DNA of 64,000 nucleotides, from contig JARUPZ010000006.1 of assembly GCA_031213475.1 (NCBI GenBank), positions 2,509,501 to 2,573,500 on the forward strand, written 5' to 3'. Both the position numbers and the translations under genes were made by a program. Under the pieces are notes generated by a model. It saw nothing but the letters and a program-made list of their open reading frames with translations. It was not told the origin of the DNA and ran no database searches. This DNA comes from Nereocystis luetkeana (Eukaryota > Sar > Phaeophyceae > Laminariales > Laminariaceae). Below are positions 13,408-61,038 of this stretch, piece after piece. Every line of letters begins with the position of its first letter. Position 1 is the first letter of the stretch.

Positions 13408-14259
13408 GTGTTACCGGGGTTCTCGCTCGACGTCGACGTTGAACAAGACCATAGCGAAAGAGGGCGGTGGACAAGATTTGCGTGGGAGCCACCTATACCA
13501 CCGGACCAGTTCATGATACGATTCTTGAATGTACTCCTCTACGTGTTCCACATCATCCGCTCGAACCACTTTCATGCCTTCCTGTTCGGGAGTAGACATC
13601 GCCGCCGCCGCTACTACATCAACCCCAACAGCACGAGAGGTCGCCGTTATCGCAGGATTTCGCGGGCAAAGGCCGACATGTCCCGGAGTCTGCGCAGCTT
13701 CTGGGCGCAGGCTCAGGCTGTTCCTTCGTCCCCTGCAGCGAAGAGAAAAGCGCTCAGGGCGACCGACAGACCAATTCCTGCGAGGGCTAGTCTACAGGCG
13801 GCTGCTCCTACAGCCCGGCTACCCCTCGTGTCGCCACCTGTGCTGTCGATCCCGTTGGAGGTAGAGGGTCTGGCGGCTGCGTCGCCTTTCCTGAGCCTTG
13901 TTTGCCAGGTCGTTGCTACCGTCTCACCGTGGCCCCTTCACCACTCGACGACGCCGCTATGGATGCCCGATGCAGCAGTGACTGGCTCACTGTGTGCCGA
14001 CAAGACGTGGTTGAGTGTGCCGCCACAAACCGTCGCCGTGACGGAACTGTGCCAGTCCGGCCGTGTCGTGACTGCGGGTGGGTGGAATTGTGCCGTCCAG
14101 CCTGGCGTGGACGGACTGTGGATTGTGGGAAGAGGAACCAATATTCACTCCCGACCTGGTTATATCAAGGTGAATCGACCCCCGTTTGATCCTCGTGGAA
14201 GCATGCATGTGTGCAACGTGAACACCCAGCCGTCGCCACGCTCTCAGCGTTCGCGGTAA
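13408..14259 (+). CDS. Gene A exon 2, basic-domain exon, unit 1
   Basis: The segment opens at CCTCAG|GTG; an ATG 12 bases upstream (13396) could instead be a start, giving 287 residues. Residues about 20-110 form a basic domain with W-T-R-F, P-x-P-P-D-Q-F, L-L-Y-x2-H, H-F-H-A-F-L-F-G, an Arg tract, I-N-P-N-S and R-R-I-S-R. The same order of motifs is seen in gene B exon 2. The rest is Pro/Ala/Val-rich with a faint single copy of the gene B repeat (SIPLEVEGLAAASP). The 3' end is uncertain: either the stop at 14259 or splicing at AAG|GTGAAT (intron from 14171) or another donor. No known family. Confidence 0.6.
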   Translation: MLPGFSLDVDVEQDHSERGRWTRFAWEPPIPPDQFMIRFLNVLLYVFHIIRSNHFHAFLFGSRHRRRRYYINPNSTRGRRYRRISRAKADMSRSLRSFWAQAQAVPSSPAAKRKALRATDRPIPARASLQAAAPTARLPLVSPPVLSIPLEVEGLAAASPFLSLVCQVVATVSPWPLHHSTTPLWMPDAAVTGSLCADKTWLSVPPQTVAVTELCQSGRVVTAGGWNCAVQPGVDGLWIVGRGTNIHSRPGYIKVNRPPFDPRGSMHVCNVNTQPSPRSQRSR

Positions 14260-15655: not shown

Positions 15656-15797
15656 CGCCCACGCTTCAATCAGTAGCGTCGAACGGTCCTCCTTGTCCCA
15701 ACGTAATATGATCTTGTCTTCTTGTGCGTTGGGCCTTTCGACCATACCGTCCGACCCCTGGCGTATACGTATGTAGGGTGTGTGCATTCAGCAGCAG

Positions 15798-16286
15798 GTG
15801 ATGATTTCCACCGCGGACGGGATCACGACTTCCTTTGATCAGGTCGGCGGGCACGCGTCCATCTTTTGTGGCGGCCTCGTCATCGGCCACCAGGCTTCGG
15901 CATCTTCGCTCGCATTGCCGGTTGTCCCGTCAGTTTTCCTGCGTACATCGAATCCCGCAATTGAAGAATGGGGGCTTGTCACTCAGTTCGAAAACATCGT
16001 GGGGTCATGCCCCCCTGCGCGTGTGGCGCGAACGCTGCACGGAGGGCTCGAGGTGGTGGTGATTTCAGCACTGGATGCCTCGGCTTGGTCGTTCCAAGCA
16101 CAAACCTTTACCGGGTTGGACAAGACCCAGTCCTACAGCAGGACCCTGGCCACAGATGGATGGAATGGCGCCATACAAACCGGGTTTAGTAGGTGGTCTG
16201 CCGCCTGTCCCATGGAGCTGGTAGACTTGCGGTGGAGTATGGCGAAATCCGTCACACCACGTCGCTCGTGCAATGGCAATGACCAG
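15798..16286 (+). CDS. Gene A exon 5 candidate, unit 1
   Basis: The frame opens at CAGCAG|GTGATG and ends in phase 0 at GACCAG|GTAGGT, exactly 163 codons. It encodes VMISTADGITTSFDQVGG, a small hydrophobic stretch SIFCGGLVIG and a Trp-containing second half (SAWSFQ, DGWNGAIQ, RWSAACPMELVDLRW). No family is recognised. Compared with unit 2 I count about 12 replacement and 7 silent differences and no indel, which fits weak constraint or faster protein change. An ATG at 15801 would also allow translation to start here. Confidence 0.5.
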
Positions 16287-16898
16287 GTAGGTCAGCCGTT
16301 TTTATTCGTGCGATGAATGGTGTATCGGTACGGCTGACTTGTACATTTGTAATCGCCGTCATCACGCTCAGCCGATGTCGACAAAACCAATATTAGCAGG
16401 CAGCGAAACGCTTGGTGCAGAGCGTGTGCGAGGGCTGAACTGACAAACTTCCTCCCATCGCTGCAGCGCCGAATCATCTACAGATAGCTATGTTTTCACG
16501 TCATGTTGAGCGTTGTTTTGCAGTGGCTCACCTCTTCATTACAAAGGGTCAAACCCTGAACGACCGGTTGTACGTGAAACCCCAAGAGCATGCCATGTTA
16601 TTTTTTGATTACCCAACGATTCACCTGATCCCCGGGCCGTTGCGGCAGGCCCGTCTTATCTTTCTTTTGTTCACTGATCACTGGCCATCTTATATACCAG
16701 TACGATATATTCGCGTGTATGGCCATCACCCCACACTTGCACCGAAGGATTGTACAGTACGTTCATATCCTGCACTCGACGGATTTGCCTTACTGTAGAA
16801 TACTACAGTACTTATCTTCCCAACGGCGCTCGACCCCTGTGTTATGTTTTGCTGGCTATCGTCAATGCCGCACGACTGCTGCAATAACATTCATGCAG
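16287..16898. other. Intron-like spacer with a 60-70 bp length difference between units
   Basis: This stretch lies between two phase 0 exons of gene A. Sequence at about 16621-16685, with GGCCGTTGCGGC and TGATCACTGGCC, is missing in unit 2. Overlapping frames of about 100 codons are broken in one unit or the other. Confidence 0.45.
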
Positions 16899-23132: not shown

Positions 23133-23247
23133 CTGCAATAATAATGATGACGTAGTTAGAGGCTTCGAGTGGAGAGACGTGCAGATAGATGATGGTGACC
23201 GCGACGTTTACTCGCGTTGCTATTTAAAATATGCCCCCGTGTCTCAC

Positions 23248-23391
23248 CGAGGTGGCGTTCATGTTTCTCTTGCATTCAGTTTCGGCGACGGCCAGCAAGC
23301 TGTGCATCACCCAGAGCGACACCGCGGGGCCGTTGTTGCCCGCCTCCAGCGTCTTCTCGATCAGGGAGTGCACCACCTCATTGGGCAGCCC
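23248..23391 (-). CDS. Gene B exon 4, unit 1
   Basis: A 144-bp exon with phase 0 at both ends, acceptor TTTGCACGTGCCAG and donor CTCG|GTGAGA. It encodes GLPNEVVHSLIEKTLEAGNN followed by GPAVSLWVMHSLLAVAETEC, a helix-like sequence. Its length equals that of exon 3. Unit 2 keeps both splice sites, with three replacements (E to K, H to N, N to D) and one silent change. Confidence 0.6.
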
Positions 23392-24629
23392 CTGGCACGT
23401 GCAAAGACAGCCGACAGCGCTGGCGACAAATACGGCGGGAGCGCGACAAAGCACGGGTGGTTGGGTTGGTTCGTGAAGCGTCGTCTCGCAAAAATTCATT
23501 CGGAAGCCAGGGAGGGGACATGGAATTTGAATGTTTGTACCACGGTACATGACCCATACCATTACGTATTGTAACATGGTTGAAAAGCCCTAAACATGTC
23601 GGATGTTGTTTCAATCATTTTGCGGATGATAACTATTTAAACTCGAAACGTTGGTTTATCAGTGGTAGGAGAAATGGCTGAATCACGACATTGGTTGACA
23701 GACCCCCTGTCTTACACGTGATGGAGTCAACACAATAGCGCGCTTGCGATACACGATGATGGTGTGTAACGGTTATCACTTTGCAAAACAAAACAGATGT
23801 AGGGTTTTGGAATATTCTGGTGTGCCTATTAAGCATGCTGATAGCGGACGAGCGTAGCCCATCAAGGAGGTCGAGCATATTTAGTTGTTTTAACACGTTC
23901 ACAGAAAACGTCTTCTCTGACAGGCAAACTGAAACATAACTCGAAGGTATTGAATGTTATCGACAAAACAATCCATCCTGGTAAACCCGTTCGTTGACAT
24001 GACACCTAAATAAGAACCGAAATCGGAATACACAATCGGAATGCAATGCGACCACTCCGCTCACCTCACGAATATCTCAGCATATAGAGCGTCCATGGTT
24101 TCATCTTCTAACCAGATGTGCGCTGTCGGAGACTGCCTTCGCAACACCTCCCATGAGTGCCTCATACCCTGGGAAATTCAACGACAAAAAAAATGTGCGT
24201 ATTGCGTCGATCAAGAGCTGTGAGCTGTACGCGACTCTTTGTGGGCCAGAAGAGAGGTTGCTTCACTACAAGCTGATAATGACATGTTACCGCCTACGTA
24301 GTTTGAAACACGTGGGGCTACATCGCACCCCAATCGATGCAGGTCCGCACGAGAAACACAGATGGGTACTAAGGAAAAGGTACATCGCCAAGTATCGCAG
24401 CGAGGCGGGTTTGGGACCATACCATCACCAGAACCTTGCGTTTAATCAATAATGTCTTGCCGTGTATTTGTGGATACAGGCCAGATATGGTGAGGGGACC
24501 CGTGTGCAAGCTAATAACACAGCAACAGGAAAGGTGGGGACACCATGAACGCGCTACAGTACCGAGAAACTTCACAAGGGATGAGGGGGGGGGGGGGGCA
24601 TGCTCTAGTGCTTGTTTGATTTTTCTTAC

Positions 24630-25318: not shown

Positions 25319-27580
25319 CTGTGCATAGCCGGTACACGGGTAAAGCTCCACCGCCTCCGTTAATATCCACCGCAGAGCTGCCCGCTCTGAAGGACACGCC
25401 TCAACCGAAAATCGGTCCACGTCAGCCTTGATGACGTACCCCCACCCTCGCTTGGGCCTCGCCATGCTGTCGGACTCGTCCATGTCCATCACTGCGAACG
25501 TCTTCGCGACCCCCGCCCAATTAAGGGCATGCAACGTATCCACTGCATCCGACGGAACAATAGCTCTCCCCTCCTCAGACTCCCAGAGACGCGGCGGCAC
25601 CGCAAGCGCAGGGGGGAACCATGGTCCCGCCGGAAGTCTGCCCAAATGAATGCCGACACCGAGGGTAGATGCCTGAGGGAAGGGATCCAGGGCAGGCCAC
25701 AGGGCCGATGAAGCTTGAAAACGAACAGGCTCCGGCGCCGATCCAGGTTTCCAGCGAAACGGCGGAAATAAATGGGCAGGGATGACCACTGGTGCCGCGC
25801 GTATTCGGTTCTGGAGAAACACGGGTCCGAGCGCAGCTGCAAGAGAAAAGGCCCTTGTGACAGGCCACGAGCCCTCCGGGGCCTGGTATGGAACTACTTC
25901 CATGGCCGCTCCAGGCTCCCAGAGAAACGGCGCAGGGACGATCACTGGTGCCGCAGGAGGATGCCCCAGCGGAACTACGACTCCGAGGCTAGCTGCCGGA
26001 TGAAAGGAGTCCAGGGAGAGCCATGACGCGGTGGTGGTGGATTGACCAGGAACTAGTTCCATCGCTTCGCCGTGTTCCCAGCGAACTGGCGCAACCTGAA
26101 GCGCAGGGGCGATCAACAGTGCAGCAGGAAGGTGCTCCAACGGCAGCACGGCTCCGAGCGCAGCTCCCATAGGAAAGAGGTTCGGGGCAGGCCACAGTGT
26201 CGTCGAAGCTCTGTGAATAGCTAAATCCATGGTCAACCCAGGCTCCGAACGAAGTGGCGCAAGAGGAAGGGCAGGAGCGATCGATGGTTCCAGCGGGCGT
26301 TGTTCAAGCGGAATATCCGCTCCAAACGCAGCTCCTTGAGATGAGGAGTCCAGAGTAGGCAACAGGGCCGCCGGTGTTTGGCAAACAATTATGCCCATCG
26401 TCGCCCCATTATCCCCGAGATGAGGCGCAAGCGCAAGTGCAGAGGCGACCAACGGTTCTGCAGGAAGGTCCCCCAGTGAAATGTCAAGTCCAAGAGCAGG
26501 CGCCGGAGGTAAGCGGTCCCGGGTAGGCCACGGGGTCACCGGGATTTGGTAGAAAACTATTTCCATCACCGGGCCAGGCTCCCAGGTAACAGGCGCAACC
26601 GGACGCGCAGGGGTGATCAACGGTGCCACCTTAATTTGCTCCAGGGGACCCATGGCTCCGAGTGCAGCTGCAAGAGAAAAGGAGTCCAGGGCAGGGCACG
26701 GGGCCGCCGGGGCTCGGTAGGGAACTAGTTCCATAGCCGCTCCAGGTTCCCAGCGAAGTGGCGCAGCCGGAAGAAGGAAAGGGTCGATGAACAGTGCCAC
26801 AGAAACGTGCTCCAGCGGAATGGCAGCTCCGAGCACAGCCGCCGTAGGGAAGGAGTCGAGAGCAGGCCATGGGGTCGCCGGGGCGTGGTAAGGGACGATG
26901 TCCATCGCCGCTCCAGGTTCCCAGAGAAACGGCGCATCCGGGGGCGCAGAGGCCATCAACGGGGGCTGAGGAAGGTGCACCGGCGGAAGGGTGGCCGTGG
27001 GTGCTGCTGCCGGGGGCAAGTGTCCTAGAGTAGTCCATGGTTCCGGAGGCGTTTCCAAGGGTGTCAGGACGCTTACGGAGGCAGCAGGAGCCAAGTTGAC
27101 ACCTAAATTGGCCATCGGGGGCCAGCGCGCCACAGACACCGCAGGAGCAGCAATGATTGCGACCTCCGTCGGGTTCAGATTCAGTGGTGCTGTATCCCTA
27201 ACTGCGCCCTTTTCCCGCTCATCTCCGCACAATGTCCAAGCAAAGCACATAACCTGTGTCCAGGCGTCCCACAACATCTGGTCAAGGTCGGTATTTACTC
27301 GCGAGATGCGGCGGAGACGGCGATTTCTCTTGCTGTTCAAGTTTATACGGTGGTAGCGGCGGCGGCGGCGGCGGTTTCTTCCTCGCTTCCTTCCGTAGAG
27401 CAAAGCGTGTATGTGGTCCGCGTTGATGACGTGGGCAGCGTACAGGAGAGCGATGAAGAATCGGTCCACGAACTGCTCCAGGGGGGCGGGAGTCTTCCGG
27501 TCGAATTTCGTCCATCGAAACTCTTCGTCTTGATCGTCATCTGGAGGTTGTTGGAAATCGCCCGCAAGATATGTCGACAC
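25319..27580 (-). CDS. Gene B exon 2, repeat-bearing exon, unit 1 (754 codons)
   Basis: The exon opens at CCCGCCCCAG|GTG with a pyrimidine-rich acceptor and ends at CACAG|GTGAGG, phase 0 at both ends. After an acidic lead (DDDQDEEF) residues about 20-110 form the same basic domain as gene A: F-R-W-T-K-F, Q-F-V-D-R-F, L-L-Y-A-A-H, H-I-H-A-L-L-Y-G, Arg tract, I-N-L-N-S, R-R-I-S-R. A linker leads to eight Pro/Ala/Leu repeats of about 56 residues (core EPGAAM-x-(I/L)-V-P-Y, then W-P-x-L-D). The end reads FAVMDMDESD, KRGWGYVIKADVD and ACPSERAALRW. There is no ATG at the head; where gene A has ATG this gene has ATC. The family is unknown; nuclear localisation is a guess from the basic tract. Confidence 0.75.
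25905..26906. repeat. Single copy of the 1002-bp coding repeat, unit 1
   Basis: GCCGCTCCAGG recurs at 25905 and 26907, exactly 1002 bp apart, marking one higher-order block of six sub-repeats of about 167 bp. In unit 2 this block is present six times. Confidence 0.85.
27356..27374. repeat. (CGG)n tract coding for Arg, unit 1
   Basis: An uninterrupted GCG/CGG run inside the basic domain of gene B gives an Arg tract on the minus strand. It is 9 bp (three codons) shorter than in unit 2. Confidence 0.9.
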
Positions 27581-28197
27581 CTGGGGCGGGATTAGAGAGT
27601 AGTTGTCAATAACCGGTGTTAACAGTAGTTCTATGTGTTTTAAAGTTAAGGCTGAGACCCTTGCTGTTTGTCTTACTTCGACAGTGTACGTCTTCCTATA
27701 CTGGGGGGCTAACCTTCGGAGCTAGTGACAACGAACCAAGAATACGCCAGGAACGGGATTCGCGGGGTTCGCTTTCTTTCCCCCGCTCCAACATACCTTT
27801 CTCATTCTTCGTGAAAATGATCTACTCTAACGCGATGATTACAACTTCGGCACACTATTTTTGTCGGTAGCTGTTAGCATTGTGACTTGCTCTACAGAAG
27901 TTGTATGTCCTTCCTTCGTTGGTTGTTCGGACCTACCTGGTACAGTAGAACGGGACTAGCGATTTTCGCTTCATCTCTCACCGCGCCTACACGTTTTTGT
28001 CGCTCTTTGAACAACCATCAACTGAGAGGTGGTGTGTTCAACGATGACGACCACACGGGATATATATATTGTAGCTATTGGACTGTGACTTGCTCTATTC
28101 TAGTTGTATATCGTTATTCATCTGCTTTCGTTTTGGTACGGGGCGCCCGGCGCTCCCAGAGTATGCTTCAGCGGCCTCAAATTAGGGCTGCCCATAC
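27581..28197. other. Gene B intron 1, unit 1
   Basis: Runs from the GTATGG donor to the acceptor before exon 2. The frame of exon 2 stays open about 45 codons into the 3' end of this intron without an ATG, so an unspliced upstream extension cannot be excluded. Confidence 0.45.
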
Positions 28198-28629
28198 CTC
28201 TCCAGCAGTTGTGACAGGAGTGGCAATGCCAGTGTAGGCACCGCTTGACGCTCTTCCTAGGCCGTTGCCGGCCATGAGTTGCGGCAGGACGGCGAATATA
28301 TCGTACATGCCCAGGGATGTCTCGATACTGTTTTCTTGAACGTCGGCGAGGACGGAGACAGCAGACACGCCTGCGGTCGGAATAGATCTGGTAGCAGCGG
28401 TCCAAAACCCAGTCCTCACGTTGCACGTCTTGGCGCCGCCGGCATCATAAGGGTAGTTGACCTCGTTTTGCTCGTTTCGTTTGAATCTCCTTGTCAGCGA
28501 TCGGCAAGCAACACGGTAGAAATAAGGTCGTATCGCCCAGACATTCTGCGGTGGCGGACAGGCGATGTTTGTACGAGATGATTCAAGCGTATTTCCCCAA
28601 ACTGTGTCCGCCACGAATGTCCCAAGCAA
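28198..28629 (-). CDS. Gene B exon 1 candidate, unit 1
   Basis: An open segment of about 144 codons ends in phase 0 at GGAGAG|GTATGG, matching the phase of exon 2. It includes WAIRPYFYRVACRSLTRR, NVRTGFWTAATRSIPTAG, VSVLADVQENS and MYDIFAVLPQLMAGNG. The V-L-x2-V-Q and F-A-V-L-P spots align with the end of gene A exon 1. No ATG is found at its head, so a further upstream exon or a shorter form is likely. Unit 2 differs by only three bases, all replacements. Confidence 0.45.
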
Positions 28630-29399
28630 TAATAGCTACTCCAATGCCACAAAGTAGGCATCATGCTGATCCCCATGAACAACAGAAGTGTTTGTGATAC
28701 GCAGTCCCTTCGTTAAGGGCTAGCGGCGAAACTGTGTCCCGAGTAACCGCAGACCACATGAAAGGACAAGCGCAGGCATGGATTTCCGTGATGAAAGGAA
28801 ACCAGTTTTCTCTGTATTGTTCTGAACCAGCCGGCTCAACTGTATCTGCTCCATGTCATTTCCATAGTGCATTTCGCGACAAAAATGAAAAAAAGACTGG
28901 GTACGGTCAAGCTCAAGTGTATTGCCACGCTAAGAATCGATCCTACACCGAAGCTGAGACAGACGAAGGAGCCGGTTCTCCTGCAGATACTCCATGGCAT
29001 ATAGTCAGCACGTTTCGCATGAAAAATACAAAGATTGACTACAGTACGTCAGGCCGACTGCACGTGGACTATCGCGATAACAAACGTTCCTAATCTGAAA
29101 CTTAGATCATATACTAAGTATCGAATTACTAGTAAACGGCAATTACGTACGCAAAACACGTTTCGGATATTGTTTTCCGCACTAAATACCAGCGCGATTC
29201 CAGTACAATTTGTGCAATGCATCTAATACAGATCTATTGCTGCAGTATGGAACTCGGATGTATGAAAAAAACACACATTGGACAACGTGACACTAAACGT
29301 TCTATGTCAATGTTACGCGCCAGCAAAAACAAACACGTAACATTTCGTTATTGCGTTAATTACGTTCTGCATTTTCTGACCACATAGGGTTAGTGCGTT

Positions 29400-41218: not shown

Positions 41219-41877
41219 GTGAAGATATCAACTAACGCCGCCATGTAATTCTAAAGATATAGTATAGGTGTCGAAAGGAACTCGCTCAGAAATATATTTG
41301 AAACTGTCGTCAGAATGTGTGCGTTGGTGGAAGGTTCCACGAAAGTGATCAGAATTTCATCGTAGAGTTCGGCGATCGTGCATAATATTGAAAACCAAGT
41401 GAAAAACACCCTCAGTCAGCCAGCCTGCCAGAGACAAAGGAACCCCTGTGAGTGCGGTCGGTCCCCTGCCGATCCAAAACTTGCATTCGCTGGAAATAAT
41501 GTCTCGTCTTGGAAGTAGAGGATATCGCGTCGCTGTGGGTTCTGGTTGGCTGCAATCATTAATAAAATGGTCGTATTGCAACTGGAGAAACAGAGCGTGG
41601 TGGGGGATTTGACCTTGAATAACGTCGGACAAAAATAGATCGCTTGAGTTTTGCCCGTTGATCAGGGTTATTTCTGTTTCCTTGTGATAATGGTTTTCCG
41701 GGTGTGGATCGTATGAGATTCTTGAAGATGACCTGGTCATAATATTTGTCGATTTGGTTCGCCGATTGGCCCTGAGCGTTTTCATTTCTGTTTTCCTAAC
41801 GTATCGTGTGGATTACAAATGATACTTTAGTGATATATTAGTCGGTTACTGACCTGTTCACGGCGATGCCGCCCCAG

Positions 41878-42729
41878 GTGTTACCGGGGTTCTCGCTCGA
41901 CGTCGACGTTGAACAAGACCATAGCGAAAGAGGGCGGTGGACAAGATTTGCGTGGGAGCCACCTATACCACCGGACCAGTTCATGATACGATTCTTGAAT
42001 GTACTCCTCTACGTGTTCTACATCATCCGCTCGAACCACTTTCATGCCTTCCTGTTCGGGAGGAGACATCGCCGTCGCCGCTACTACATCAACCCCAACA
42101 GCACGAGAGGTCGCCGTTATCGCAGGATTTCGCGGGCAAAGGCCGACATGTCCCGGAGTCTGCGCAGCTTCTGGGCGCAGGTTCAGGCTGTTCCTTCGTC
42201 CCCTACAGCGAAGAGAAAAGCGCTCAGGGCGACCGACAGACCCATTCCTGCGAGGGCTAGTCTACAGGCGGCTGCTTCTAAAGCCCGGCTACCCCTCGTG
42301 TCGCCACCTGTGCTGTCGACCCCGTTGGAGGTAGAGGGTCTGGCGGCTGCATCGCCTTCCCTGATTCTCGTTTGCCAGGTCGTTGCTACCGTCTCACCGT
42401 GGCCCCTTCACCACTCGACGACGCCGCTATGGATGCCCGATGCAGCAGTGACTGGCTCACTGTGTGCCGACAAGACGTGGTTGAGTGTGCCGCCACAAAC
42501 CGTCGCCGTGACGGAACTGTGCCAGTCCGGCCGTGTCGTGACTGCGGGTGGGTGGAAATGTGCCGTCCAGCCTGGCGTGGACGGACTGTGGGTTGTGGGA
42601 AGAGGAACCAATATTCACTCCCGACCTGGTTATATCAAGGTGAATCGACCCCCATTTGATCCGCGTGGAAGCATGCATGTGTGCAAAGGGAACACCCAGC
42701 CGTCGCCACGGTCTCAGCGTGCGCGGTAA
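41878..42729 (+). CDS. Gene A exon 2, basic-domain exon, unit 2
   Basis: Same length as in unit 1 with no indels; ATG at 41866 and acceptor CCCCAG are both present. Replacements are few in the basic domain (H to Y, S to R) and more frequent in the Pro/Ala-rich part. The nucleotide motif ATGCCGCCCCAGGTG is one base from the ATCCCGCCCCAGGTG that opens gene B exon 2. Confidence 0.6.
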   Translation: MLPGFSLDVDVEQDHSERGRWTRFAWEPPIPPDQFMIRFLNVLLYVFYIIRSNHFHAFLFGRRHRRRRYYINPNSTRGRRYRRISRAKADMSRSLRSFWAQVQAVPSSPTAKRKALRATDRPIPARASLQAAASKARLPLVSPPVLSTPLEVEGLAAASPSLILVCQVVATVSPWPLHHSTTPLWMPDAAVTGSLCADKTWLSVPPQTVAVTELCQSGRVVTAGGWKCAVQPGVDGLWVVGRGTNIHSRPGYIKVNRPPFDPRGSMHVCKGNTQPSPRSQRAR

Positions 42730-52003: not shown

Positions 52004-53077
52004 CTGGCACGTGCAAAGACAGCCGACAGCGCTGGCAACAAATACGGCGGGAGCGCGACAAAGCACGGGTGGTTGGGTTGGTTCGTGAAGCGTCGTCTCG
52101 AAAGAATTCAGTTGGAAGCCAGGGAGGGGACATGGAATTTGAATGTTTGTACCACGGTACATGACCCATACCATTACGTATTGAAACATGGTTGAAAAGG
52201 CCTAAACATGTCGGATGTTGTTTCAATCATTTTGCGGATGATAACTAGTTAAACTCGAAACGTTGGTTTATCAGTGGTAGGAGAAATGGCTGAATCACGA
52301 CATTGGTTGACAGACCCCCTGTCTTACACGTGATGGAGTCAACACAATAGCGCGCTTGCGATACACGATGATGGTGAGTAACGGTTATCACTTTGCAAAA
52401 CAAAACAGATGTAGGGTTTTGGAATATTCTGGTGTGCCTATTAAGCATGCTGATAGCGGACGAGCGTAGCCCATCAAGGAGGTCGAGCATATTTAGTTGT
52501 TTTAACACGTTCACAGAAAACGTCTTCTCTGACAGGCAAACTGAAACATAACTCGAAGGTATTGAATGTTATCGACACAACAATCCATCCTGGTAAACCC
52601 GTTCGTTGACATGACACCTAAATAAGAACCGAAATCGGAATACACAATCGGAATGCAATGCGACCACTCCGCTCACCTCACGAATATCTCAGCATATAGA
52701 GCGTCCATGGTTTCATCTTCTAACCAGATGTGCGCTGTCGGAGACTGCCTTCGCAACACCTCCCATGAGTGCCTCATACCCTGGGAAATTCAACGACAAA
52801 AAAAATGTGCGTATTGCGTCGATTAAAAGCTGTGAGCTGTACGCGACTCCTTGTGGGTTTGGGACCATACCATCCCCAGAACCTTGCGGTTTATCAATAA
52901 TGTCTTGCCGTGTACTTGTGGATACAGGCCAGGTATGGTGAGGGGACCCGTGTGCAAGCTAACAACACAGCAACAGGAAAGGTGGGGACACCATGAACGC
53001 GCTACAGTACCGAGAAAATACACAAGGGATGAGGGGGGGGGGGGGGCATGCTCTAGTGCTTGTTTGATGTTTCTTAC

Positions 53078-53221
53078 CTTCTCGAGCAGAACTGCCTGTC
53101 CGTCGATCGTAGATCTCTGAAACCAGGCTGCGGGAGACGCCCACTGCACGAACACTTTTAGCGCTGCTTTCTTGTCTCCTCGTACTCCACGGTAGATTGC
53201 CCGTGCGGCGTGGTAAAAGCC
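53078..53221 (-). CDS. Gene B exon 3, unit 2
   Basis: 144 bp, phase 0 at both ends. The acceptor TTTGCAG is closer to the usual consensus than the TTTCCAG of unit 1. Confidence 0.65.
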
Positions 53222-53757
53222 CTGCAAATGCGTGACGAGAGGAGGTGAAGTCATTGGTTTGTACGTACCAGATTTGCGGTTTACGGCGAAATATAGGGTG
53301 TGTGCTTTGTGCCTCGTTTCTGCTTCAATGGATTACGCATAAGTGCATTGCAAACACAAACGTTTGCTTTGTCACTGTACTTCAGCTGAATGAATACAAA
53401 CGGTAAGAAAACCGCGCAAAGTATATGGGATATGAGACTATGTAATCAACGTAAGGACTGGTATCGGTGGCTTGGAAGCCAATCATCTACCACGACGTAT
53501 ACCCTCAGGAACCCAACGTCTCGCCAGACAATATGATTTCATTAAAAGAAGAGTGAGTGCGGCAACAATCTGATGAACAGTGGCTCCAGTGGAGCCTCGG
53601 TACAAAACGAAAAATACTGCGTAGGACAGATAAACAATTCCAACAATACAATGGTTGTGCAGCCACCAAATGATAATCCAGTCAGCCACAATTTCGTTAT
53701 CGGAGGGAAAATGTCGATTTGCATACAGCACATGGCATAGATATGGAAGGGCCTCAC

Positions 53758-56700
53758 CTGTGCATAGCCGGTACACGGGTAAAGCTCCACCGCCTCCGTT
53801 AATTTCCACCGAAGAGCTGCCCGCTCTAAAGGATACGCCTCGACCGAAAATCGGTCAACGTCGGCCTTGATGACGTACCCCCACCCTCGCTTGGGCCTCG
53901 CCATGCAGTCGGACTCGTCCATGTCCATCACTGCGAACGTCTTCGCGACCCTCGCCCAATTAAGGGCATGCAACGTATCCACTGCATCCGACGGAACAAT
54001 AGCTCTCCCCTCCTCAGACTCCCAGAGACGCGGCGGCACCGCAAGCGCAGGGGGGAACCATGGTCCCGCCGGAAGTCTGCCCAGACGAATGCCGACACCG
54101 AGGGTAGATGCCTGAGGGAAGTGATCCAGGGCAGGCCACAGGGCCGATGAAGCTTGAAAAAGAACAGTCTCCATCGCCGCTCCTGGTTTCCAGCGAAATG
54201 GCCAAAATAAATGGGCAGGGATGATCACTGGTGCCGCGCGTATTCGCTTCTGGAGAAACACAGGTCCGAGCGCAACTTCGAGAGAGAAGGCGCTTCTGAC
54301 AGGCCACGAGCCCTCCGGGGCTTGGTATGGAACTATTTCCATGGCCGATCCAGGTTCACAGAGAAGTGGCGGAGAGACGATCACCGGTGCCGCAGGAAGA
54401 TGCCCCAGCGGAATTACGACTCCGAGCCTAGCTGCCGGATGAAAGGAGTCCAGGGAAGGCCATGACGCGGTGGCGGCGGATTGACTAGGAACTAGTTCCA
54501 TCGCTTCGCCGTGTTCCCAGCGAACTGGCGCAACCTGAAGCGCAGGGGCGATCAACAGTGTACCAGGAAGGTGGTACAACGGCAGCACGGCTCCGAGCGC
54601 AGCTCCCATAGGAAAGAGGTTCGGGGCAGGCCACAGTGTCGTCGAAGCTCTGTGAATAGCTAAATACATGGTCAACCCATGCTCCGAACGAAGTGGCGCA
54701 AGAGGAAGGGCAGGAGCGATCGATGGTTCCAGCGGGCGTTGTTCAAGCGAAATATCCACTCCAACCGCAGCTCCTTGAGATGAGGAGTCCAGAGTAGGCA
54801 ACAGGGCCGCCGGTGTTTGGTAAACAATTATGCTCATCGCCGCCCCAGTATTGCCGAGATGAGGCGCAAGCGCAAGTGCAGAGGCGAGCAACGGTGCTGC
54901 AGAAAGGTTCTGAAGTGAAATGTCAAGTCCAAGCGCCGCCGCCGGAGGTAAGCGGTCCAGGGTAGGCCACGGGGTCGCCGGGATTTGGTAGCAAACGTTT
55001 TTCATCACCGGGCCATGCTCCCAGGAAACAGGCGCATCCGGAAGCGCAGGGGTGATCAACGGTGCCACTTGAGTTCGCTCCAGGGGACCCATGGCTCCGA
55101 GTGCAGCTGCAAGCGAACCGGAGTCCAGGGCAGGAAACGGGGCCGCCGGGGCTCGGTAGGGAACCAGTTCCATAGCCGCTCCAGGTTCCCAGCGAAGTGG
55201 CGCAGCCGGAAGAAGGAAATGGTCGATGAACAATGCCACAGAAACATGCTCCAGCGGAATGACAGCTCCGAGCACAGCCCCCGTAGGGAAGGCGTCCAGA
55301 GCAGGCCATGGGGTTGCCGGGGCGTGGTAAGGGACGATGTCCATTGCCGCTCCAGGTTCACAGAGAAGTGGCGCAGGGACGATCACCGGTGCCGCAGGAA
55401 GATGCCCCAGCGGAATTACGACTCCGAGCCTAGCTGCCGGATGAAAGGAGTCCAGGGAAGGCCATGACGCGGTGGCGGCGGATTGACTAGGAACTAGTTC
55501 CATCGCTTCGCCGTGTTCCCAGCGAACTGGCGCAACCTGAAGCGCAGGGGCGATCAACAGTGTACCAGGAAGGTGGTACAACGGCAGCACGGCTCCGAGC
55601 GCAGCTCCCAAAGGAAAGAGGTTCGGGGCAGGCCACAGTGTCGTCGAAGCTCTGTGAATAGCTAAATACATGGTCAACCCATGCTCCGAACGAAGTGGCG
55701 CAAGAGGAAGGGCAGGAGCGATCGATGGTTCCAGCGGGCGTTGTTCAAGCGAAATATCCACTCCAACCGCAGCTCCTTGAGATGAGGAGTCCAGAGTAGG
55801 CAACAGGGCCGCCGGTGTTTGGTAAACAATTATGCTCATCGCCGCCCCAGTATTTCCGAGATGAGGCGCAAGCGCAAGTGCAGAGGCGAGCAACGGTGCT
55901 GCAGAAAGGTTCTGAAGTGAAATGTCAAGTCCAAGCGCCGCCGCCGGAGGTAAGCGGTCCAGGGTAGGCCACGGGGTCGCCGGGATTTGGTAGCAAACGT
56001 TTTTCATCACCGGGCCATGCTCCCAGGAAACAGGCGCATCCGGAAGCGCAGGGGTGATCAACGGTGCCACTTGAGTTCGCTCCAGGGGACCCATGGCTCC
56101 GAGTGCAGCTGCAAGCGAACCGGAGTCCAGGGCAGGAAACGGGGCCGCCGGGGCTCGGTAGGGAACCAGTTCCATAGCCGCTCCAGGTTCCCAGCGAAGT
56201 GGCGCAGCCGGAAGAAGGAAATGGTCGATGAACAATGCCACAGAAACATGCTCCAGCGGAATGACAGCTCCGAGCACAGCCCCCGTAGGGAAGGCGTCCA
56301 GAGCAGGCCATGGGGTTGCCGGGGCGTGGTAAGGGACGATGTCCATTGCCGCTCCAGGTTCACAGAGAAGTGGCGCAGGGACGATCACCGGTGCCGCAGG
56401 AAGATGCCCCAGCGGAATTACGACTCCGAGCCTAGCTGCCGGAGGAAAGGAGTCCAGGGAAGGCCATGACGCGGTGGTGGTGGATTGACCAGGAACTAGT
56501 TCCATCGCTTCGCCGTGTTCCCAGCGAACTGGCGCAACCTGAAGCGCAGGCGTGATCAACAGTGCAGCAGGAAGGTGCTCCAACGGCAGCACGGCTCCGA
56601 GCGCAGCTCCCATAGGAAAGAGGTTCGGGGCAGGCCACAGTGTCGTCGAAGCTCTGTGAATAGCTAAATACATGGTCAACCCAGGCTCCGAACGAAGTGG

Positions 56701-59700
56701 CGCAAGAGGAAGGGCAGGAGCGATCGATGGTTCCCGCGGGCGTTGTTCAAGCGAAATATCCGCTCCAACCGCAGCTCCTTGAGATGAGGAGTCCAGAGTA
56801 GGCAACAGGGCCGCCGGTGTTTGGTAAACAATTATGCTCATCGCCGCCCCAGTATCGCCGAGATGAGGCGCAAGCGCAAGTGCAGAGGCGAGCAACGGTG
56901 CTGCAGAAAGGTTCTGCAGTGAAATGTCAAGTCCAAGCGCCGCCGCCGGAGGTAAGCGGTCCAGGGTAGGCCACGGGGTCGCCGGGATTTGGTAGCAAAC
57001 GTTTTTCATCACCGGGCCATGCTCCCAGGAAACAGGCGCATCCGGAAGCGCAGTGGTGATCAACGGTGCCACTTGAGTTTGCTCCAGGGGACCCATGGCT
57101 CCGAGTGCAGCTGCAAGCGAAACGGAGTCCAGGGCACGAAACGGGGCCGCCGGGGCTCGGTAGAGAACCAGTTCCATAGCCGCTCCAGGTTCCCAGCGAA
57201 GTGGCGCAGCCGGAAGAAGGAAATGGTCGATGAACAGTGCCACAGAACCTTGCTCCAGCGGAATGACAGCTCCGAGCATAGCTCCCGTAGGGAAGGAGTC
57301 CCGAGCAGGACATGGGGTTGCCGGGGCGTGGTAATGGACGATGTCCATCGCCGCTCCAGGTTCCCAGAGAAGTGGCGCAGGGACTATCACTGGTGCCGCA
57401 GGAAGATGCCCCAGCGGAATTACGACTCCGAGCCTAGCTGCCGGAGGAAAGGAGTCCAGGGAAGGCCATGACGCGGTGGCGGTGGATTCACTAGGAACTA
57501 GTTCCATCGCTTCGCCGTGTTCCCAGCGAACTGGCGCAACCTGAAGCGCAGGCGTGATCAACAGTGCAGCAGGAAGGTGCTCCAACGGCAGCACGGCTCC
57601 GAGCGCAGCTCCCATAGGAAAGAGGTTCGGGGCAGGCCACAGTGTCGTCGAAGCTCTGTGAATAGCTAAATACATGGTCAACCCAGGCTCCGAACGAAGT
57701 GGCGCAAGAGGAAGGGCAGGAGCGATCGATGGTTCCCGCGGGCGTTGTTCAAGCGAAATATCCGCTCCAACCGCAGCTCCTTGAGATGAGGAGTCCAGAG
57801 TAGGCAACAGGGCCGCCGGTGTTTGGTAAACAATTATGCTCATCGCCGCCCCAGTATTTCCGAGATGAGGCGCAAGCGCAAGTGCAGAGGCGAGCAACGG
57901 TGCTGCAGAAAGGTTCTGAAGTGAAATGTCAAGTCCAAGCGCCGCCGCCGGAGGTAAGCGGTCCAGGGTAGGCCACGGGGTCGCCGGGATTTGGTAGCAA
58001 ACGTTTTTCATCACCGGGCCATGCTCCCAGGAAACAGGCGCATCCGGAAGCGCAGGGGTGATCAACGGTGCCACTTGAGTTCGCTCCAGGGGACCCATGG
58101 CTCCGAGTGCAGCTGCAAGCGAACCGGAGTCCAGGGCAGGAAACGGGGCCGCCGGGGCTCGGTAGGGAACCAGTTCCATAGCCGCTCCAGGTTCCCAGCG
58201 AAGTGGCGCAGCCGGAAGAAGGAAATGGTCGATGAACAATGCCACAGAAACATGCTCCAGCGGAATGACAGCTCCGAGCACAGCCCCCGTAGGGAAGGCG
58301 TCCAGAGCAGGCCATGGGGTTGCCGGGGCGTGGTAAGGGACGATGTCCATTGCCGCTCCAGGTTCACAGAGAAGTGGCGCAGGGACGATCACCGGTGCCG
58401 CAGGAAGATGCCCCAGCGGAATTACGACTCCGAGCCTAGCTGCCGGAGGAAAGGAGTCCAGGGAAGGCCATGACGCGGTGGTGGTGGATTGACCAGGAAC
58501 TAGTTCCATCGCTTCGCCGTGTTCCCAGCGAACTGGCGCAACCTGAAGCGCAGGCGTGATCAACAGTGCAGCAGGAAGGTGCTCCAACGGCAGCACGGCT
58601 CCGAGCGCAGCTCCCATAGGAAAGAGGTTCGGGGCAGGCCACAGTGTCGTCGAAGCTCTGTGAATAGCTAAATACATGGTCAACCCAGGCTCCGAACGAA
58701 GTGGCGCAAGAGGAAGGGCAGGAGCGATCGATGGTTCCCGCGGGCGTTGTTCAAGCGAAATATCCGCTCCAACCGCAGCTCCTTGAGATGAGGAGTCCAG
58801 AGTAGGCAACAGGGCCGCCGGTGTTTGGTAAACAATTATGCTCATCGCCGCCCCAGTATCGCCGAGATGAGGCGCAAGCGCAAGTGCAGAGGCGAGCAAC
58901 GGTGCTGCAGAAAGGTTCTGCAGTGAAATGTCAAGTCCAAGCGCCGCCGCCGGAGGTAAGCGGTCCAGGGTAGGCCACGGGGTCGCCGGGATTTGGTAGC
59001 AAACGTTTTTCATCACCGGGCCATGCTCCCAGGAAACAGGCGCATCCGGAAGCGCAGTGGTGATCAACGGTGCCACTTGAGTTTGCTCCAGGGGACCCAT
59101 GGCTCCGAGTGCAGCTGCAAGCGAAACGGAGTCCAGGGCACGAAACGGGGCCGCCGGGGCTCGGTAGAGAACCAGTTCCATAGCCGCTCCAGGTTCCCAG
59201 CGAAGTGGCGCAGCCGGAAGAAGGAAATGGTCGATGAACAGTGCCACAGAACCTTGCTCCAGCGGAATGACAGCTCCGAGCATAGCTCCCGTAGGGAAGG
59301 AGTCCCGAGCAGGACATGGGGTTGCCGGGGCGTGGTAATGGACGATGTCCATCGCCGCTCCAGGTTCCCAGAGAAGTGGCGCAGGGACTATCACTGGTGC
59401 CGCAGGAAGATGCCCCAGCGGAATTACGACTCCGAGCCTAGCTGCCGGAGGAAAGGAGTCCAGGGAAGGCCATGACGCGGTGGCGGTGGATTCACTAGGA
59501 ACTAGTTCCATCGCTTCGCCGTGTTCCCAGCGAACTGGCGCAACCTGAAGCGCAGGCGTGATCAACAGTGCAGCAGGAAGGTGCTCCAACGGCAGCACGG
59601 CTCCGAGCGCAGCTCCCATAGGAAAGAGGTTCGGGGCAGGCCACAGTGTCGTCGAAGCTCTGTGAATAGCTAAATACATGGTCAACCCAGGCTCCGAACG

Positions 59701-61038
59701 AAGTGGCGCAAGAGGAAGGGCAGGAGCGATCGATGGTTCCCGCGGGCGTTGTTCAAGCGAAATATCCGCTCCAACCGCAGCTCCTTGAGATGAGGAGTCC
59801 AGAGTAGGCAACAGGGCCGCCGGTGTTTGGTAAACAATTATGCTCATCGCCGCCCCAGTATCGCCGAGATGAGGCGCAAGCGCAAGTGCAGAGGCGAGCA
59901 ACGGTGCTGCAGAAAGGTTCTCCAGTGAAATGTCAAGTCCAAGCGCCGCCGCCGGAGGTAAGCGGTCCAGGGTAGGCCACGGGGACGCCGGGATTTGGTA
60001 GCAAACGTTTTTCATCACCGGGCCATGCTCCCAGGAAACAGGCGCATCCGGAAGCGCAGGGGTGATCAACGGTGCCACTTGAGTTCGCTCCAGGGGACCC
60101 ATAGCTCCGAGTGCAGCTGCAAGCGAAACGGAGTCCAGGGCAGGAAACGGGGCCGCCGGGGCTCGGTAGGGAACCAGTTCCATAGCCGCTCCAGGTTCCC
60201 AGCGAAGTGGCGCGGCCGGAAGAAGGAAATGGTCGATGAACAGTGCCACAGAACCTTGCTCCAGTGGAATGACAGCTCCGAGCATAGCCCCCGTAGGGAA
60301 GGAGTCCCGAGCAGGACATGGGGTTGCCGGGGCGTGGTAAGGGACGATGTCCATCGCCGCTCCAGGTTCCCAGAGAAACGGCGCAACCGGGGGCGCAGGG
60401 GCCATCAACGGGGACTGAGAAAGGTGCTCCGGCGGAAGGGTGACCCTGGGTGCTGCTGCCGGGGGCAAGGGGCTTAGAGTAGTCCATGGTACCGGAGGTG
60501 TTTCCAAGGGGGTCAGGACGCTTACGGAGGAAGCGGGAGCCAAGTTGACACCTACATTGGCCATCGGGGGCCAGCGCGCCACAGACACCGCAGGAGCAGC
60601 AATGATTGCGACCTTCGTCGGGTTCAGATTCAGTGGTGCTGTATCCCTAACTGCGCCTTTTTCCCGCTCATCTCCGCACAATGTCCAAGCAAAGCACATA
60701 ACCTGTGTCCAGGCGTCCCACAACATCTGGTCAAGGTCGGTATTTACTCGCGAGATGCGGCGGAGACGGCGATTTCTCTTGCTGTTCAAGTTTATACGGC
60801 GGTAGCGGCGGCGGCGGCGGCGGCGGCGGCGGTTTCTTTCTCGCTTCCTTCCGTAGAGCAAAGCGTGTATGTGGTCCGCGTTGATGACGTGGGCAGCGTA
60901 CAGGAGAGCGATGAAGAATCGGTCCACGAACTGCTCCAGGGGGGCGGGAGTCTTCCGGTCGAATCTCGTCCATCGAAACTCTTCGTCTTGATCGTCATCT
61001 GGAGGTTGTTGGAAATCGCCCGCAAGATATGTCGACAC
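53758..61038 (-). CDS. Gene B exon 2, repeat-expanded, unit 2 (2427 codons)
   Basis: Same acceptor, donor and domain order as unit 1, with 38 sub-repeats of about 56 residues instead of eight. The full spliced protein would be about 2570 residues without exon 1. Six 334-residue blocks follow the basic domain. The repeat keeps the frame perfectly through all blocks, which argues that the exon was translated during the expansion. The Arg tract is three residues longer than in unit 1. The C-terminal DESD...GWGYVIKADVD part is kept. There is a weak resemblance to an RNase H-like fold at GWG and SERAAL, but the expected acidic residue is not there, so no enzyme activity is proposed. Confidence 0.75.
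54346..60357. repeat. Six tandem 1002-bp coding repeats, unit 2
   Basis: The landmark GCCGMTCCAGGTTC occurs at 54346, 55348, 56350, 57352, 58354, 59356 and 60358, always 1002 bp apart. Two variants alternate (one with H-Y-H-A-P-A-T-P-C-P-A-R, one with P-Y-H-A-P-A-T-P-W-P-A-L), so the youngest duplication unit is 2004 bp. Blocks 56350-57351 and 58354-59355 appear identical, as do much of 55348-56349 and 57352-58353. Confidence 0.95.
60805..60832. repeat. (CGG)n tract coding for Arg, unit 2
   Basis: Same tract as at 27356-27374 but 9 bp longer, adding three Arg codons without changing the frame. Confidence 0.9.

Follow-up and report, generated by a model that had tools for sequence, protein, structure and literature searches.

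The window analysed here, a 64,000-nucleotide stretch of DNA from the kelp Nereocystis luetkeana (GenBank assembly GCA_031213475.1, contig JARUPZ010000006.1, positions 2,509,501 to 2,573,500 of the forward strand), contains an exon in which a 1002-bp coding block is repeated six times in frame, next to a unit in which the same exon has one block. We think it fairly likely that this exon is an internal one in an uncharacterised family of nuclear genes arranged in tandem, and that it carries a coding higher-order repeat whose blocks turn over by unequal exchange and which likely serves as a spacer. The anatomy of the exon, its block numbers, its frame and two length differences between sister copies (one of 2004 bp, one of 1002 bp) were observed directly, and we infer unequal exchange as the mechanism behind them.

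The features that carry this finding are as follows, where coordinates are those of the window, copies of the exon are numbered with a G and a slash marks an exon boundary:

53758..61038, minus strand: copy G18 of the repeat exon, from the six-block gene, 2427 codons (7281 nt), phase 0-0, acceptor CCCCAG/, donor CACAG/GTGAGG
54300..59609, minus strand: six tandem 1002-bp blocks in G18, with 300-nt reference stretches starting at 54300, 55302, 56304, 57306, 58308 and 59310
55761..59861, minus strand: perfect 2004-bp tandem duplication in G18, with 57765-59861 matching 55761-57857 over 2097 bp
25319..27580, minus strand: copy G17 of the repeat exon, from the one-block neighbour, 754 codons (2262 nt), splice sites as in G18

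An initial annotation of the window had described an in-frame repeat expansion at 53758-61038, and this observation is confirmed, those coordinates being exactly the ones of the splice-bounded exon. The blocks are spaced by exactly 1002 bp inside one exon and the frame is kept (six blocks, no stop codons, a length divisible by three), and the claimed difference of one to six blocks between neighbouring units is real, as G17 has a single copy (at 25861). A change in protein length from about 900 to about 2570 residues had also been proposed. The change itself stands, while the figures do not: the exon encodes 754 residues in G17 and 2427 in G18, and these are lengths of the exon, not of a whole protein. 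Splice sites are identical in the two exons, and both ends fall between codons (i.e., the exon starts and ends in phase 0).

Each block is itself repetitive. It consists of six degenerate repeats of 56 residues (168 bp), which together make up the 1002-bp, 334-residue block. By our own reading of the sequence, the one-block exon comprises eight such repeats and a partial ninth, and each added block brings six more, so that by arithmetic the repeat region ranges from about 8 to about 38 full 56-residue repeats across copies. Its composition is dominated by Ala (17%), Pro (17%) and Leu (13%), with Ser at 5% and Thr at 4%. A six-frame check of 54 distinct blocks found just one frame free of stops, and all blocks appear to share one stop-free frame between two splice sites, as opposed to having one exon per repeat. 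In the N-terminal part of the exon, a triplet run at 60797-60832 encodes arginines on the minus strand, and at this one place the copies in a codon alignment of 20 vary in length, in frame, by 6, 9 and 12 nt.

We searched the window's own assembly (465 Mb, 1987 contigs) using the one-block exon as the query, which gave 73 matched pieces. Grouped by place, these include 19 minus-strand exons at C6:2.03-2.60 Mb, which constitute the tandem array, and four outlying exons in both orientations at C6:2.85-2.93 Mb (L031-L033), so 23 C6 copies were extracted. The remaining pieces were a diverged copy at 2.018 Mb (72%), one short stretch from a plus-strand gene and weak matches spread over four further contigs. 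The block numbers, which derive from a single genome assembly, are 4,4,6,1,4,5,1,5,5,1,1,5,2,1,1,3,1,6,1 in array order, and two (G20), three (G21), one (G22) and one (G23) outside the array.

Twenty copies (all 19 in the array plus the outlying G21) are intact, each with a length divisible by three and no stops. The other three outlying copies are broken (23 stops in G20, 7 in G22 and 7 in G23) and were left out of the selection counts. Every one of the 20 open copies has the acceptor CCCCAG and a donor of the form CAG/GT, which reads GTGAGG in 18 of 20, GTCAGG in one and GTAAGG in one. There are 60 blocks with 54 distinct sequences; ungapped block identities exclude G04, which has a 3-nt indel inside its block, and the broken G20. 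At the array edge, a diverged open copy (L034:278-1420) has 56-residue repeats and no tandem 1002-bp blocks, and may resemble the state before block formation. Related 56-residue repeats, with short and broken frames, also occur on another contig (L038, C4:3876900-3879300).

Comparisons within and between copies show how recently the blocks have changed in number. The initial annotation took alternating block variants as a sign that a 2004-bp dimer was the latest duplication, and we agree. In G18, blocks 2 and 4 are identical at all 1002 positions, the other pairs of this exon differ at 11 to 40, and the match at an offset of 2004 bp is perfect over 2097 bp: the dimer is the youngest duplication within the G18 copy. 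The sister unit of G18 is G02, which lies half a megabase away and has four blocks. Across the whole unit, the two are 99.19% identical over 28,354 columns (177 mismatches), but when one 2004-bp unit is removed from the G18 exon, it differs from that of G02 by only 5 mismatches in 5277. The exon pair is therefore far less diverged than the whole unit, which suggests that units have undergone conversion. The length difference more likely arose by a gain in G18 than by a loss in G02. The 2097 bp show no difference, where the whole-unit divergence would predict about 13 (P about 2e-6) and the exon-pair divergence (5/5277) only about 2 (P about 0.14), so the dimer may be older or younger than the last common state of the two exons.

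Other comparisons also indicate exchange and turnover. The 200 nt that follow the G18 exon (within 53545-53757; L006, L029) are identical to those of G15, but differ from the sister G02 by 12 mismatches and 18 gap columns, so units exchange sequence and are mosaics. In a second sister pair, G03 minus one 1002-bp unit differs from G09 at 5 of 6273 positions (the best among cut points in steps of 50). Using a tree of the non-repeat parts of 20 copies, which conversion may distort, parsimony gives nine changes in block number.

Near-identical blocks with internal 168-bp repeats would be a good substrate for unequal homologous exchange, the partners being either sister chromatids or different units of the array. 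The products would differ by multiples of 1002 bp and, since the length of a block divides by three and the exon is phase 0-0, every gain or loss would keep the frame. The outcome would be proteins with the same ends and a repeat region of variable length, with selection acting mainly against truncation. The copies are presumably expressed, and the Ala/Pro/Leu-rich repeat region is probably a length-variable spacer or scaffold between fixed ends.

Selection was assessed by counting minimal mutations against a consensus (567 in total), not all of which are independent, given shared ancestry and conversion. Replacement:silent counts were 57:22 in the 5' part of the exon (neutral 54:22, P = 0.90), 282:95 in the 54 distinct blocks (neutral 259:108, P = 0.07) and 76:34 in the 3' part (neutral 76:29, P = 0.46). 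Restricting the counts to changes seen at least twice gave 26:8, 169:54 and 35:19 (P = 0.57, 0.09 and 0.22), and pairwise dN/dS was 1.13, 1.22 and 0.66, in the same order. Mild constraint on the 3' part is possible, and the block counts give no sign of purifying selection on the repeat residues. For stop codons, the expected numbers were 2.8 (5'), 11.1 (blocks) and 4.9 (3'), and none is present in any of the 20 copies; one stop was scored in the blocks by placing a single base on the consensus codon, but no copy has it.

Near neutrality raises the possibility that the array is decaying, i.e., that the frame is open merely through the youth of the copies and no product is made. Replacement:silent counts are near neutral in every array exon that we counted, three outlying copies are broken, and mean divergence among the eight one-block loci is similar in the exon (0.031) and in its flanks (0.027 and 0.046). 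We nevertheless consider decay unlikely. About 18.8 stops would be expected in total where none occurs, an argument tempered by the shared changes among the mutations counted. Indels among the same eight loci are multiples of three in 3/3 cases in the exon versus 2/15 in the flanks, and the splice sites are retained in 20/20 open copies.

The repeats could instead be a recognition array, in which they form a binding surface and both their number and their sequence are selected for new specificities. Brown algae offer a precedent in ROCO genes, where each LRR is reported to be its own exon and to be under diversifying selection (PMC11378527). The likeness lies in the turnover of repeats, a source of brown-algal diversity, and block number here does change fast. 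There is also a slight, non-significant excess of replacements in the blocks (P = 0.07, with the pairwise dN/dS above one). However, block replacements are distributed evenly, both from codon to codon (P = 0.92) and along the 56-residue register (P = 0.93), which is unlike a repeat with selected contact residues, and neither these tests nor the block counts reveal diversifying selection at repeat positions. A Pfam search of 111 of the 218 open reading frames (ORFs) in the unit, a set which may lack some exons of the repeat gene, found no LRR, ROC-COR, NB-ARC or spidroin terminal domain at E <= 0.01, the sole match being Srg (0.0068). The algal repeats thus differ from those described for ROCO genes in sitting within one exon, in matching no LRR model and in lacking positional selection, and we regard a recognition array as quite unlikely, with no positive evidence for binding beyond the change in length. 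The initial annotation had suggested a fast-changing binding or spacer array, and this interpretation is partly supported: rapid change in block number holds and the repeats may be a spacer, but near-neutral, evenly spread replacements do not favour a binding array.

Although the identical blocks 2 and 4 of G18 are a repeat type prone to mis-assembly, it is very unlikely that the pattern is in part an assembly artefact (long near-identical repeats collapsed or multiplied), as there are 54 distinct sequences among the 60 blocks, block numbers run from 1 to 6 over 20 copies, all in frame, and two sister pairs differ by a single unit of 2004 or 1002 bp.

Other exons of the repeat gene, and a plus-strand paralog, can also be placed in the window. 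Both downstream exons were located through relatives near paralogs on C11:

24630..24773, minus strand: 48-codon exon that follows in the one-block gene, in phase 0-0 by our own reading, acceptor TTTCCAG/, donor GAGAAG/GTAAGA, with related stretches downstream of the C11 paralogs
23251..23418, minus strand: further downstream exon, 56 full codons, its acceptor splitting a codon
51839..52198, minus strand: region of the further downstream exon in the six-block gene (C6:2561339-2561698), a copy of 23227-23589
53000..53242, minus strand: 48-codon exon plus flank in the six-block gene (C6:2562500-2562742)
28180..28635, minus strand: candidate upstream exon, its ORF open in 20/20 intact copies
13408..14169, plus strand: exon A of the plus-strand paralog in unit 1, 39% over 74 aa to the N-terminal part of the repeat exon, no blocks, exon start likewise CAG/GTG
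15777..16286, plus strand: exon B of the unit 1 plus-strand paralog, within an ORF at 15777-16313, 35% over 81 aa to the C-terminal part of the repeat exon, donor CAG/GTAGGT
41866..42729, plus strand: plus-strand paralog in unit 2, ORF of its exon A

With both of its ends in phase 0, the 48-codon exon is compatible with the end phase of the repeat exon. The further downstream exon begins inside a codon, so at least one exon is probably missing between the two. Relatives of the further downstream exon occur on C11 (E 9e-23 to 4e-16) and, more weakly, elsewhere on C6 (E 7e-5 and 1e-4) and C40 (E 0.003 and 0.01). For the candidate upstream exon, the antisense frame is also open in the seven copies compared, so its strand is unsettled, and we found no relatives of this ORF outside C6. 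Plus-strand paralogs were listed at 18 places between the repeat genes (2.04-2.60 Mb), with open frames and no blocks, and are convergent with the repeat gene of their own unit. Their replacement:silent counts are near neutral (28:17 for exon A and 32:12 for the exon B ORF, 7-8 copies). More distant relatives of the N- and C-terminal parts of the repeat exon, with open frames, were found on C11 and C3.

Several points weigh against a length-variable spacer encoded by an arrayed gene family. The gene model is a candidate drawn from DNA, its putative start codon and first exon included, and the spacer role is deduced solely from composition and the absence of constraint. Within the array, replacement:silent counts are 10:4 for the further downstream exon (expected 9.9:3.7, 7-8 copies) and 8:3 for the 48-codon exon (eight copies); neither shows purifying selection, so the young copies may be nearly redundant. 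Structure prediction of the 56-residue repeat, proposed in the initial annotation, did not help: a two-repeat model had no confident fold and was unusable, with a predicted local distance difference test (pLDDT) of 44 and a predicted template modelling score (pTM) of 0.13, from a shallow alignment of 12 rows. Over longer times, the picture seems to differ. For the further downstream exon, six pairwise comparisons of three C11 copies and one C6 copy give dN/dS of 0.14-0.43, and the family appears to be constrained over long times, with young array copies drifting and mainly breaks being removed.

None of the libraries searched returned a convincing match for the family. The 754-aa exon of the one-block gene has no Pfam match at E <= 1, so this exon shows no LRR motif and no spidroin terminal domain, although the terminal exons of the gene may lie elsewhere. 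Five Pfam matches of the six-block protein (DUF4305, PGM1_C, Hao_C, DUF7711 and Chromo_shadow, two of them above cut-off) were rejected: no matching stretch passes alone, and we take them to be repeat artefacts because the one-block exon gave none. A match of the 48-codon exon to Rab3-GTPase_cat (E 0.16) fell below that family's cut-off and was not used. NCBIfam and PHROGs each returned no family for 5/5 proteins (E <= 1). Profile searches of PDB gave no match at E <= 10 for the repeat and four for the downstream exon (best E 0.19). The further downstream exon is predicted to form three helices (pLDDT 76), and its model had eight structure matches in PDB (best E 4.6), none convincing. Two further likenesses were also dropped: a TFIIB cyclin fold for the downstream exon has no support from Pfam or from the PDB profile and structure searches, and RNase H for the C-terminal part of the repeat exon has none from Pfam. 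Viral contigs gave 5 and 11 pattern matches with no relative confirmed. We saw no paper on the family in the literature searched, which was mostly open-access and covered brown-algal genomes (kelps included), exon shuffling and coding repeats, among them filaggrin.

Scans of the window itself found nothing with Rfam at gathering scores and nothing with ARAGORN. Perfect tandem duplications of 31 bp and 92 bp lie at 616-677 and 1030-1215, with no counterpart listed in the second unit. Elsewhere in the assembly, COX1 fragments on C12, C5, C11 and C3, several with stops, are probable mitochondrial insertions in the nucleus, and the RuBisCO large subunit has 131 matches on >100 contigs, most of equal score, which are probably plastid pieces left unmerged in the assembly.

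Returning to the spacer reading, our best comparison is that the repeat exon is like filaggrin or spidroin repeats in kind. Mucin repeats are rich in Ser and Thr, whereas the algal block is Ala/Pro/Leu-rich (17, 17 and 13%) with little of either (5 and 4%). The mucin likeness lies in having a large exon of variable-number coding repeats, as described in a preprint (PMC13345508). Mammalian filaggrin (FLG) has coding repeats of 972-975 bp in tandem in a single exon, 10-12 of them in humans, with numbers that vary within and between species (PMC5225520). The likeness (near-1-kb tandem repeats in one exon, in variable number) is one of kind and implies no homology. FLG repeats are described there as being under purifying selection within species (PMC5225520), but the algal blocks are near neutral; in addition, it is tandem paralogs within a single genome that vary in the alga, and the algal block is itself six 56-residue repeats. 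The major ampullate spidroins of Argiope are reported to be clustered paralogs whose hierarchical repeats have been homogenised inside each gene, in some cases as near-identical units that alternate, with signs of inter-gene conversion (PMC9779670). The algal family shares the combination of a paralog cluster (19 tandem copies) and internal repeat turnover (nine parsimony changes over 20 copies). It differs in that spidroin repeats, as described, are delimited by introns and their products are silk (PMC9779670), whereas the algal blocks lie in one exon.

A bolder idea, which we hold to be doubtful, is that selection holds the frame open, with module number kept in play, while leaving the residues of the modules free, so that length, not sequence, would be the trait and the array would serve as a stock of length variants open to reshuffling by exchange. 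For the preferred reading of a coding higher-order repeat with block turnover, the value lies in the series itself. Turnover of coding repeats is usually studied across alleles or species, but here a single genome seems to hold a series of one to six blocks in close relatives, including sister pairs that are one unit apart. This block series lets two questions be tested: how coding higher-order repeats grow and shrink, and whether selection acts on their length or on their sequence.

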